Positions 22,375-40,211 of a DNA stretch of 64,000 nt are shown here, piece by piece (position 1 is the first letter of the stretch; each line of letters starts with the position of its first letter). The notes below the pieces were generated by a model. The model made no database searches. It was not told where the DNA came from and saw only the letters and a program-made list of their open reading frames with translations. This stretch comes from Alloalcanivorax mobilis (GTDB lineage: Bacteria > Pseudomonadota > Gammaproteobacteria > Pseudomonadales > Alcanivoracaceae), in contig NZ_NMQZ01000003.1 in assembly GCF_002864685.1 (NCBI RefSeq), positions 124,001-188,000 of the forward strand, given 5' to 3'. The position numbers and the translations under genes are program-made.

Positions 22375-22453
22375 GCTACAAGCTACAAGCTACAAGCTAC
22401 AAAAAGCGACGACGGAAGTGGCCTCTTGCAGCTTGAAACTTGCCGCTTGAAGC
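22375..22453. repeat. Heptamer-repeat hairpin, element 1 (word GCTACAA)
   Basis: GCTACAA is repeated four times without a gap (22375-22402), then 23 bases, then four complementary heptamers TTGCAGC, TTGAAAC, TTGCCGC and TTGAAGC (22426-22453). The arms can fold into a hairpin of about 28 imperfect pairs. It sits between the convergent ends of the EamA gene and the extensin-like gene. Similar elements with different words are at 29296, 35559 and 40119. Confidence 0.85.
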
Positions 22454-22509
22454 CGGTCTCCACGGAGCACGGCGTCGCCGATGGCACGGCCTGTCCCTTG
22501 TTCCAGCCG

Positions 22510-23217
22510 CTAACGACAGATGCCAAACCCGCGCAACCCCAGGTGGAAATGGTTGGCGTGGGCGGCGTTGTAGTCGGGGCTCAGGGTGGTGCCGAAAAAC
22601 CGGCAGGCGCCGTCGCGGGCGCGGTGCAGAAAGTCTCCGCGTTTGCCGTCGTCGTTCCAGTCGTCAAGCACCGAGACACGGGTGCCGTCGGCCAGGGTGA
22701 AGGCGGCTACGTCGAGGGCCGAGGCGGTGGCGTGGTCGCTGCGGCGGTCATCCTTGCGGTGGTAGATGTTGCGGCAAGCGAAGGTGCCGTAGTGCCATAC
22801 TTCACGCACCGGCTGACCGAACACCGCCTTCGCCTGAGGCTGCAGCTGGTGGCGTTCGAACATCGCCCAGGCCAGCGCCAGAGGACAGCGCGCCACGAAC
22901 GAGTGATTGAAACGTACCCCGGCGCTGCGCACGCGCACCACATTGCTTAACGGGCACGCCTGAACCGGGGTGTAATCCTTCAGGGGCAGGTAATCCAGAC
23001 CGCCTTCAGGCACCGTATCCAACGCCGCCAGGCACGCCTGGCGGTCATCGCCTATGCGCTTGAGTTTCCAGCGCGTCACCGGTGTCACCGGGTCGCTCAC
23101 CACCAGTGGCATAAAGGGATTCCACTGGCGCGGCACCGGCCACCATTGCTGCTTGAGACCAGCCACGAATAGAGCGGCGGCGATGGCCATCACCAGGATT
23201 ACCAGGAGGGATTTCAT
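22510..23217 (-). CDS. Extensin-like C-terminal domain protein, membrane-anchored
   Basis: The 235-residue protein begins with one transmembrane or signal segment (LLVILVMAIAAALFVAGL) followed by the extensin-like domain: ACPLSNVVRVRSAGVRFNHS, WHYGTFACRN, RSDHATASALDVAAF and NHFHLGLRG near the end. Conserved His and Asp residues in these motifs resemble peptidoglycan-acting metallopeptidases, so a cell-envelope role is likely but unproven. GGAGG lies only two bases before the ATG, so a start a few codons upstream, such as the TTG at 23253, cannot be excluded. It follows the BASS transporter by 32 bases. Confidence 0.82.
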   Translation of the reverse strand: MKSLLVILVMAIAAALFVAGLKQQWWPVPRQWNPFMPLVVSDPVTPVTRWKLKRIGDDRQACLAALDTVPEGGLDYLPLKDYTPVQACPLSNVVRVRSAGVRFNHSFVARCPLALAWAMFERHQLQPQAKAVFGQPVREVWHYGTFACRNIYHRKDDRRSDHATASALDVAAFTLADGTRVSVLDDWNDDGKRGDFLHRARDGACRFFGTTLSPDYNAAHANHFHLGLRGFGICR

Positions 23218-23249
23218 TCCCTCCAGCCTAGCGACCCACGGGCTGGCCC

Positions 23250-24167
23250 TCAATCATCCTTTTCTCCCCGGCGGCGCCAGTACCAGGCGAGAATCGAGCC
23301 GGACAAATTGTGCCAGACGCTGAACAACGCCCCCGGCAGGGCCGCCAGGGCGGAAAAATGCTTGCCCGCCAGCGCCACGCCCAGGCCGGAATTCTGCATG
23401 CCCACTTCGATCGCCAGAGTACGTGCTTGGCGTCGGTCAAAGCGCAGCAAGCGGGCGGCGCCGTAGCCCAACCCAAGCCCCAGGCCGTTGTGCAATATCA
23501 CCGCCAGCATCACCAGCAACCCGCCGGTGGCGATGTGACCCTGGTTCTGCGCCACCACGATGCCGATCACCAGCACAATGGCGATCACCGAGATCAGCGG
23601 AAAGATTTCACGCACTGGCCGCAGCGGTTTGTGCAATAGCGAGTTGAGCACCGTGCCTCCCACCACCGGCAGCAGGACGATTTTCACCAGCGACCACAGC
23701 ATCGCCGCCACCGGCACCGGAATACTCTCACCGACGTACAACCAAACCAGCACCGGCGTGGCGAGCACCGCCACCAGGGTGGACAGCGACGTCAATGTAA
23801 TGGACAGCGCCACGTCGGCGCGCGCCAGATAACAGATCACGTTGGAGGCGGTGCCGCCGGGGCAGGCGCCCACGATCACCAGCCCGACCAGCAGCTCCTG
23901 GGGCAAACCAAGCCCCCGGGCGACCAGAAACGCGGCCAGCGGCATGATCAGAAACTGCAGGCCCATGCCAGTAAGAATCACCCGGGGCTGGCGCAACACC
24001 CGGGCGAAATCCGACCAGGCCAGAGTCATGCCCATGCCAAACATAATCACCATCAGCAGGGGCACGATCCAGGTGCCACGGGCGGCCAGCGGCGCCGGCA
24101 TCAGATAGGCGAAGATCGAAAGCAGAATGGCCCAGAGGGGGAACAAGCGGGTGACCGTGGCAATCAT
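23250..24167 (-). CDS. Bile acid:sodium symporter (BASS) family transporter
   Basis: The 305-residue protein has about nine hydrophobic helices and the BASS signatures GACPGGTASNVICYLA and, near the end, EVGMQNSGLGVALAGKHF. Bacterial members use sodium to move bile acids, pantoate, pyruvate or other organic anions. The ATG at 24167 with GGAGC upstream is preferred over a frame from 24224. Here the natural substrate is unknown. Confidence 0.88.
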   Translation of the reverse strand: MIATVTRLFPLWAILLSIFAYLMPAPLAARGTWIVPLLMVIMFGMGMTLAWSDFARVLRQPRVILTGMGLQFLIMPLAAFLVARGLGLPQELLVGLVIVGACPGGTASNVICYLARADVALSITLTSLSTLVAVLATPVLVWLYVGESIPVPVAAMLWSLVKIVLLPVVGGTVLNSLLHKPLRPVREIFPLISVIAIVLVIGIVVAQNQGHIATGGLLVMLAVILHNGLGLGLGYGAARLLRFDRRQARTLAIEVGMQNSGLGVALAGKHFSALAALPGALFSVWHNLSGSILAWYWRRRGEKDD

Positions 24168-24197
24168 GATGTGCTCCACTTTCTTAGGTTCATCGCG

Positions 24198-38479: not shown

Positions 38480-38560
38480 ATCGATGTTCCGGTTCAGCCG
38501 GTAAATTGCCGGCCCGCAGGGCCGGAGCCGCCCGGTCGCGCCGGACCGGGCGCGCGTGTT

Positions 38561-38896
38561 TTATATGTTCTTAATGGTGCCTTTGGGCAACGTGGCCTGG
38601 ACACTCTGTTTCTGCAGCTTGATCTCGAGGTTATTGCTGATTTCCACCACCACGAAATCGTCGGTGACCTTGACGATCTTGCCCAGGATGCCGCCACTGG
38701 TGACCACTTCGTCACCCTTGTTCAGGCTTTTGACCAGATTTTTATGCTCTTTGGCGCGTTTTTGCTGGGGACGGATGAGAAAGAAGTAAAACACCACCAT
38801 CATCACCACCAGCATGATCAGTTCCACGCCACCGGGTGCTCCGCCAGGAGCGGCGCCGCCAGTCTGTGCATAGGCAGGTGAGATCAACCAGTTCAT
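38561..38896 (-). CDS. yajC: Sec translocase accessory protein YajC
   Basis: This is a single-pass inner-membrane protein that associates with SecDF. It is 111 residues with one hydrophobic helix (LIMLVVMMVVFYFFLI) and then the family motif RPQQKRAKEHKNL and a small domain with GDEVVTSGGILGKI. It sits in the standard tgt-yajC-secD order, 77 bases after tgt. Confidence 0.95.
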   Translation of the reverse strand: MNWLISPAYAQTGGAAPGGAPGGVELIMLVVMMVVFYFFLIRPQQKRAKEHKNLVKSLNKGDEVVTSGGILGKIVKVTDDFVVVEISNNLEIKLQKQSVQATLPKGTIKNI

Positions 38897-38973
38897 TATG
38901 TCACTCCAGGTCTTTTAAGCAGTAAGCGTGAGCGACCACCGGCGAGCTCGCCGGCCAATGCCGTTCACGGTGT

Positions 38974-40104
38974 TTAAAGCGCGGGTACCGGACGCTCCAA
39001 AGCCGCGTAGAAGCCGCCCACAAAGGCGCTCAATGTACCCGCTTCGATAGCCCCCCGCAATCCGGCCATCAGCCGTTGGTAGTAGCGCAGATTGTGGATG
39101 GTGTTGAGCTGCGCGCCGAGCATCTCGCCGCAGCGGTCCAGGTGGTGCAGATAACCGCGCGAAAACCGGCCACAGGTATAGCAATCGCACCCTTCTTCCA
39201 GCGGCGACAGATCATGCCGATGCCGGGCGTTGCGGATTTTCACCACTCCCGAGGCCGTGAACAGGTGGCCGTTACGAGCGTTGCGGGTGGGCATCACGCA
39301 GTCAAACATGTCCACCCCACGGCGCACCGCCTCGACGATGTCCTCCGGTTTGCCCACGCCCATCAGGTAACGGGGCTTATCCGCCGGCATGTGCGGGGCG
39401 ATTTCACCGAGGGTGCGCAGCATTTCCTGCTGCGGCTCGCCCACGCTCAACCCGCCGACCGCGTAACCGTCGAAGCCGATGTCCACCAACCCGTGCAGGG
39501 ATTCACGGCGCAATGCGTCGTACATGCCTCCCTGTACGATGCCGAAACAGGCGGCATCGTTCCCCGCCTGTTCAAAATGAGCCTGTTTGGAGCGCGCCGC
39601 CCAGCGCAACGAGAGCCGCATCGACTCCGCCGCCTGGGTCTCGGTGGCGGGAAACGGCGTGCATTCGTCGAAGATCATGCAGATGTCGCTGCCCAGGGCA
39701 TGCTGCACCTGCATCGCCCGCTCCGGGCTCAGCTCGATGCGGTCGCCGTTGATCGGGCTTTTGAACACCACGCCCTGCTCGCTGATCTTGCGCATGGCGC
39801 CCAGGCTGAACACCTGGAAGCCGCCGGAATCGGTGAGAATCGGCCGTGGCCACTGCATAAAGCCATGTAGCCCGCCGTGCTGGCCGATCACCTCGGTGCC
39901 CGGGCGCAACATCAGGTGAAAGGTATTGCCCAGACAGATCTCGGCGCCGGTCTCATCCAGATCCCGTGGCAACATGCCCTTGACGGTGCCGTAGGTGCCC
40001 ACCGGCATAAACGCCGGCGTTTCCACGCTGCCGCGCGGAAAGGTCAAGCGCCCACGCCGCGCCGCGCCGTCGCTGGCCAGATGCTGAAAGGTCATTCGGG
40101 ACAT
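38974..40104 (-). CDS. tgt: Queuine tRNA-ribosyltransferase
   Basis: It exchanges guanine-34 for the queuine precursor preQ1 in GUN-anticodon tRNAs. The 376-residue protein has the catalytic [12 protein letters not shown] with Asp (about 92), the second Asp in [15 protein letters not shown], and the zinc site [17 protein letters not shown]. It lies downstream of queA, which acts after it in the same pathway; a heptamer hairpin lies between the two genes. Confidence 0.96.
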
Positions 40105-40118
40105 GGCAAACCTCGCTC

Positions 40119-40211
40119 GACGCCGGACGCCGGATGCTGGACGCTAAAATAAAAAAACCAGCCGCACCTCATGTTTTAGCGTCCGGCGTCAAGCGTCCAG
40201 CGTCCGGCGCT
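40119..40211. repeat. Heptamer-repeat hairpin, element 4 (word GACGCCG/GACGCTG)
   Basis: The left arm is GACGCCG, GACGCCG, GATGCTG, GACGCTA (40119-40146); the right arm is TAGCGTC, CGGCGTC, AAGCGTC, CAGCGTC, CGGCGCT (40177-40211). The inner edge is AT-rich. It lies between queA (upstream on the minus strand) and tgt and overlaps the last codons of queA, an unusual place inside a housekeeping operon. Confidence 0.85.

Follow-up and report, generated by a model that had tools for sequence, protein, structure and literature searches.

The stretch analysed here covers 64,000 nucleotides of the genome of Alloalcanivorax mobilis (contig NZ_NMQZ01000003.1, positions 124,001 to 188,000; hereafter the window). 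It carries four elements in which a tandem array of a 7-bp word, the heptad, faces an array of the complementary word across a central core. Element 1 is flanked by convergent EamA and Extensin-like genes, element 2 by co-directional aldehyde dehydrogenase and Iso_dh genes, element 3 by a convergent aminotransferase gene and secF, and element 4 by co-directional tgt and queA. In element 4, the QueA frame crosses the right arm and stops at 40169, inside the core. An original prediction had placed all four at gene ends, two of them between convergent genes and one reaching into the coding end of queA, and the gene context agrees on each point. Reading of the sequences, together with a word-free detector, found the elements at the predicted places and refined their limits by a few bases. 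The elements and their arms are listed below.

22373..22453, no strand: element 1, whole; word GCTACAA / GCTTCAA, class AAGCTNC
22373..22402, + strand: element 1, left heptad arm
22425..22453, - strand: element 1, right heptad arm, complementary words
29296..29401, no strand: element 2, whole; word GATNCAG, class AGGATNC
29296..29324, + strand: element 2, left heptad arm
29372..29401, - strand: element 2, right heptad arm
35557..35647, no strand: element 3, whole; word GTTRAAA, class AAGTTRA
35557..35579, + strand: element 3, left heptad arm
35580-35622: element 3, core, a GC-rich inner stem
35623..35647, - strand: element 3, right heptad arm
40115..40210, no strand: element 4, whole; word GACGCYG, class ACGYYNG
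40115..40146, + strand: element 4, left heptad arm
40178..40210, - strand: element 4, right heptad arm

The detector score is the sum of the lag-p matches of both arms and their reverse-complement match, with a maximum of 49. At a score of at least 34, period 7 returned exactly the four elements in the window (scores 39, 38, 39 and 42). Periods 4, 5 and 8-13 returned none and period 6 returned two, while period 14 recovered the same four elements because 14 is twice seven. Shuffled windows gave a mean of 0.05 matches per shuffle at this threshold (20 shuffles) and 1 match in 200 shuffles at a score of at least 36. The detector was also applied to 833,772 bases of the same genome, window included, which is about 20% of its 4.10 Mb (92 contigs). 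Judged by QueA, its closest named relatives belong to Alloalcanivorax (79-83%). At a score of at least 36, these 834 kb contained 48 elements, compared with 0, 0, 1, 1 and 0 in five dinucleotide shuffles. Other periods gave 2 (period 5), 9 (period 6), 0 (period 8), 9 (period 9) and 1 (period 10). The detector is subject to a caveat, in that long tandem arrays of AGCT-containing words can pair with themselves; three such false elements were found in other genomes.

In 43 of the 48 elements, both arms belonged to one word class in the correct inverted orientation. Three sets were used below: all 48, the 43 with one class required in both arms, and 44 with classes left free and edge cases dropped. 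Head-to-tail 7-mers also occurred in runs of three or more beyond chance, and an inverted partner within 250 bp accompanied 41 of 55 strong intergenic arrays, compared with 9% of 300 random controls. Unpaired CAGTTTT/CAGTGTT arrays, some of them long, were observed at L113:11994, L118:13164, L125:18932, L126:8802, L158:5634 and L168:11784 and 16283. Outside the window (43 elements in 770 kb) the density was uneven, with 34 elements in 370 kb of contig starts and contig 23 (L112-L131) and 9 in 400 kb inside contigs 1 and 12 (L152-L171). These results confirmed that the inverted heptad elements are real. The single design first proposed, period 7 with inverted symmetry, was borne out in many copies across the genome; neither a lack of further elements nor an equal yield from shuffles, which the original prediction had named as evidence against itself, was observed.

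We next consider the arms. Among 86 arms, with edge units counted leniently, 42 had four units, 21 had five, 8 had three and 15 had six or more; the longest, two arms, had 13 units each. Three heptads make 21 bp, or two helical turns. Six class words accounted for 92 of 96 arms: ACGYYNG (35 arms), AAGTTRA (30), AAGCTNC (18), AGGATNC (4), ACGCWNC (4) and CAGTTRA (1). It had been proposed that each locus carries a different word. The words do vary, but the six classes are reused across loci.

A column analysis that assumed no word was performed on 71 elements pooled from this and related genomes. A single most variable column was found in 49 of them, and the tandem identity of the units was 0.38 at this column, compared with 0.79-0.97 at the other six. 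A G stood three positions before it in 34 of the 49 elements, and a T or C one position before it in 46. In 409 class-aligned units the variable base was G in 191, A in 152, T in 52 and C in only 14, despite a genomic GC content of about 63%. We examined whether the two arms of an element agree at this base. Their agreement was 0.650, compared with 0.667 for different elements of the same class, and 1596 of 2000 shuffles were as high; at the remaining positions it was slightly above shuffles (0.845 versus 0.815; 4 of 2000 as high). An apparent pairing signal at the variable base (0.46 versus 0.26 when shifted) was rejected, as it came from the register-maximising detector and a register-free test showed nothing. 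Since the two arms do not match better at this base, mismatches recur in the folds at 7-bp steps. These results indicate that one base per heptad is free, which neither pairing nor slippage predicts. In class-B arms, the outermost listed unit was GTTGA in 21 of 30 by hand count, although 85% of class-B units have A there. The order of units within an arm is inherited.

The placement of the elements was examined with gene calls from our own codon-usage script. Of the 44 elements, 13 lay between convergent, 19 between co-directional and 4 between divergent genes, 6 overlapped a predicted gene and 2 were at edges; the background of spacers of at least 60 bp was 47 convergent, 205 co-directional and 75 divergent. 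The usual position, as shown by these data, is beside a stop codon. Selection for hairpin shape, with the elements serving as bidirectional transcription terminators or stabilisers of mRNA 3' ends, would account for this excess of convergent and shortage of divergent spacers. It also agrees with the strong folding of both strands, as all 8 single strands of the four window elements folded better than their own shuffles (z -3.2 to -7.6), and with cores in relatives that resemble classic terminators, such as the secF cores of the compared genomes G004, G010 and G011 with GGCCGTGCC..GGCACGGCCTTTTT. However, the terminator function raised in the original prediction found no backing in a simple scan for intrinsic terminators (GC stem and T run), which detected no site in any of the four elements at a loop limit of 3-8, a limit that long loops could escape. 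The full window contained 18 terminator-like sites, compared with 15.2 (sd 3.8) in shuffles, and Rfam covariance models had no match across the four elements. Furthermore, selection for a hairpin predicts neither the period of 7 nor a variable base at which the arms mismatch, and many orthologous spacers lack such elements. We therefore regard this explanation as improbable.

A further explanation is the closing of reading frames. Since 7 leaves a remainder of 1 when divided by 3, a stop triplet within the heptad shifts frame from unit to unit, and three units could close every frame of a strand. The arms closed 248 of 576 frames, compared with 197.3 (sd 12.2) for words with permuted letters, and none of 1000 permutations was as high. 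However, the excess is weak, with over half of the frames left open, and its significance is inflated because the copies of a family are not independent. The QueA frame, moreover, traverses an arm without interruption. It is very hard to credit frame closing as the reason for the arrays.

The cores were then compared with each other. Two clusters of 9 held 18 of 40 cores; the class-A cluster has an inner GTGTTTYCTG..CAGRAAACAC palindrome, and the second, mostly of class B, has an inner CGCGGGC..GCCCGCG stem. The class-A core had at least 16 matches in its own genome (19 of 45 candidates scored), 2 in G012 and none across a further 44 genomes of the family. As a rough guide, the class-A pattern gave 904 overlapping matches in the own genome, compared with 124 for the reversed control pattern. 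Among 194 genomes of the order, 9 had the class-C pattern, and paired class-C elements were found in stretches of G230 and G202, which lie outside the family; these stretches and that of G169 were mostly chosen for class-C matches, and some detector hits there are self-pairing tandem arrays. Because some classes share cores, the elements form dispersed repeat families. The original prediction had attributed them to selection or a replication mechanism acting on period and symmetry. Selection on these alone is inadequate because of the shared word pattern, the shared cores and the recurring classes, and the replication idea retains one support, the inverted secF core described below.

Orthologous spacers were compared among related genomes (G-numbers; the genome studied is G000). 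Both flanks of the aminotransferase/secF spacer were found in 16 genomes, this one included, and 8 had heptads there. The class was AAGTTRA in the own genome, YAGTTAA in G010 and G011, YAGTTGA in G004, ACGCWNC in G005, AAGCYNC in G024, GAGTTNC in G019 and ACGCCNG in Alcanivorax NORP25. Among the spacers without heptads, those of G002 and G012 had a GTAGGAGCGGC palindrome, and that of G006 is 1.8 kb long, with only its start inspected. In the tgt/queA spacer, 5 of 22 genomes had paired heptads (the own genome, G012, G008, G005 and NORP25), with a near-identical left edge after CTCGCT/CTCGCC; the score in G012 was only 33, under the usual cut. At the spacer of element 2, G004 shares the class and G002 has a class-C array, and palindromes of the repetitive extragenic palindromic (REP) type occupy it in G001, G010 and G011. 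The spacers of G003, G005 and G006 contain little. A long array of about 10 GCTGCAA units is also carried by G002. Around queA, the sequences of G004 and G010 are 97% alike, yet G010 lacks three of the elements of G004. These results show fast gain and loss between related species, and they show that within a given spacer one class can give way to another or to REP-type palindromes. The comparison, which the original prediction had proposed, thus found spacers to differ in presence and word class between species, although a word is not private to its locus. In two places, L114:13100-13210 and L126:8964-9060, a class-A heptad arm continues into a REP-type GTCGCTGGCTGGGCCTGCTCCTAC, as though a REP had taken over the remainder of the element.

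The secF spacer also differed in the orientation of its core, which is on the + strand in G004 and G011 and on the - strand in G010, while queA is on the + strand in all three. By eye, the inner units of one arm of G010 match the opposite arm of G011, as expected from exchange between arms. The full units at secF have G at the variable base throughout in G004 and A throughout in G010. Re-insertion of the core from elsewhere was rejected, since no locus but secF had the full core, all other matches being short and partial. A genome-wide current word, with a template RNA writing the arms, was also rejected, since G004 and G010 each carry both variants elsewhere. An in-place inversion of the secF core in G010 is the preferred reading of these comparisons, which cover one locus in three genomes and would look the same after an assembly error in G010.

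The inversion and the uniform arms of G004 and G010 fit arm-arm exchange, and this would be in line with local growth, in which inverted words at gene ends expand by 7-nt replication slippage, template switching keeps the symmetry and no transposition occurs. Slippage over about 7 nt is a published guess for the excess of heptamers in bacteria (PMC4679880, PMC4692102). The length of some arrays (13 units in the two own arms, about 10 in G002) and a word-like GCGTCGGGCG in the empty queA site of G004, G010 and G011 also favour local growth. However, the same few classes recur across many loci, 18 of 40 cores are shared and the copy number peaks at four. In addition, slippage does not predict that one fixed position of the seven varies. 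Local growth is thus possible but, in our view, the less likely account.

Our preferred explanation, at about even odds, is that the elements are genome-wide dispersed non-coding palindromes of about 55-240 bp, in several families, with inverted arrays of about four heptads at their ends. In niche and turnover they resemble REPs or miniature inverted-repeat transposable elements (MITEs), and we read them as fast-turning palindromes of gene 3' ends. Of the parts of this explanation, the data above show the period of 7, the paired inverted arms, the few word classes, the free base, the place beside stop codons, the cores shared in some classes, the turnover, the change of class and the flipped core at secF, while mobility and a binding protein are inferred. 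The arms are probably bound unit by unit, with one protomer of an inferred protein per 7 bp. A protein that reads the units is suggested by four features, namely bases that stay fixed, one base that is free, a mode of four units and a tolerance of differing words. Such a protein would contact each unit at the fixed bases and ignore the hypervariable one, and about four adjacent protomers would be required for stable binding. The elements would spread and persist like REPs or MITEs in spacers that tolerate insertion. Recombination or template switching between arms would flip cores and swap arm units, and if the elements affect termination or mRNA 3' ends, that role would be secondary.

Mobility was assessed with the REP-associated tyrosine transposases (RAYTs; Y1_Tnp), which were found in 37 of 46 genomes. 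Of the three own RAYTs, one has REPs nearby, another an unpaired heptad array and the third neither. Several findings weigh against dispersed palindromes bound by a protein. Of 20 RAYT stretches, 9 had the REP-type motifs GTAGGAGC/GTGGGAGC and 4 a heptad array or element; heptads were thus not consistently near RAYT genes in these stretches, which leaves RAYT a possible mobiliser. No autonomous copy or mobilising enzyme was found, Y1_Tnp being the transposase family searched. As to the MITE criteria, terminal inverted repeats are present as the inverted arms, while no target-site duplication (flank matches of at least 4 bases) was found in any of the 44 elements. Filled and empty sites did not yield clean insertion sites, as the spacer was usually replaced rather than interrupted. 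Since empty sites are unclean and such duplications are absent, movement is not proven. Furthermore, 22 of 40 cores stood alone at the similarity threshold used, and 14 of the 55 strong intergenic arrays were unpaired, including plain tandem arrays of the CAGTKTT class. The class consensus words used to assign the arms were drawn up post hoc, with the G three before the variable base built into them. Finally, no heptad-binding protein is known; a search for the omega repressor family gave 0 of 45 genomes, with the controls likewise at 0 of 14.

Some other features were noted. An own-genome RAYT gene in L255 (G000 contig 44, about 1363-2366) has several GTGGGAGCGGTCC..-type REPs around it. Within the window, a TwoAYGGAY RNA (Rfam RF01731) was found at 24431-24585; it scored 50.2 bits, above the gathering score of 43. 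At 24236-24300 lies a separate palindrome with an AT loop, CGCTTCCCGCTAAAGC..GCTTTAACGGGAAGCG, where Rfam gave only microRNA matches below threshold.

Reports of heptamer repeats in bacteria go back years, and no cause for them has gained acceptance (PMC4679880, PMC4692102). The GGGAATC repeats of Xanthomonas are the most similar to the present elements, being mostly intergenic heptamers with a clear mode of four units, few placements between divergent genes, and facing inverted arrays in 70 cases in Xcc and 75 in Xac (PMC4692102). However, 83% of them are conserved in place between Xcc and Xac, whereas the elements described here turn over fast. They also have one G-rich word, for which a quadruplex explanation was given, while several words occur here, and on direct reading the GTTRAAA, GCTNCAA and GATNCAG words have no quadruplex-capable G-tract. 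Because GTTRAAA and GCTNCAA share the mode of four without G-tracts, a quadruplex is not its general reason. The Xanthomonas unit is given as GGGNATC in the abstract and as (GGGANTN)n in the results of that report (PMC4692102), and we do not claim that its variable base corresponds to ours.

The TAACTGA repeats of Beggiatoaceae, cyanobacteria and Bacteroidetes are likewise intergenic tandem heptamers with a patchy distribution across phyla, and their complement TCAGTTA is similar to the YAGTTRA words found in G004, G009, G010 and G011 (PMC4679880). They differ in that they are direct repeats and, in the main genome described, mostly lie upstream of start codons; a single indirect repeat was reported there (PMC4679880). 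REPs and their RAYTs share with our elements the form of dispersed intergenic palindromes, and REPs fill heptad-element spacers in sister species, but the REP-type motifs seen here have no 7-bp period. The parS site of pSM19035, bound by the ribbon-helix-helix protein ParB/omega, has contiguous 7-bp repeats, and its partition complex needs four or more of them; it differs in its word and in being a plasmid centromere (PMC9499535). By analogy, it offers a possible model for the unit length of seven and the unit number of four (PMC9499535). Integron attC sites, which have core boxes of 7 bp, may be a further parallel.

Heptamer repeats, and inverted four-unit pairs of one G-rich Xanthomonas word (PMC4692102), were thus already known. 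The literature searched, whose coverage excludes most subscription papers, yielded no account of inverted heptamer elements from Alcanivorax or its kin. The new findings are that several words unable to form quadruplexes have one and the same design, that one base per heptad is free, that the class changes at fixed spacers and that a core is inverted. As species that are 87-97% alike have differing words per spacer, gain, loss and word change are directly testable. A shared architecture, the mode of four and a free base in quadruplex-incapable words also separate protein geometry, slippage and quadruplexes as causes. It is conceivable, though quite doubtful, that the arrays of Xanthomonas, cyanobacteria, Beggiatoaceae and the present genomes are of one kind, with a filament-forming protein that covers 7 bp per protomer, needs about four units and leaves one base unread (here within the pattern A-x-G-Y-Y-D-x), and a word class that can switch while place and architecture are kept. 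If so, seven and four would be set by the geometry of a protein, not by quadruplexes or polymerase slippage.

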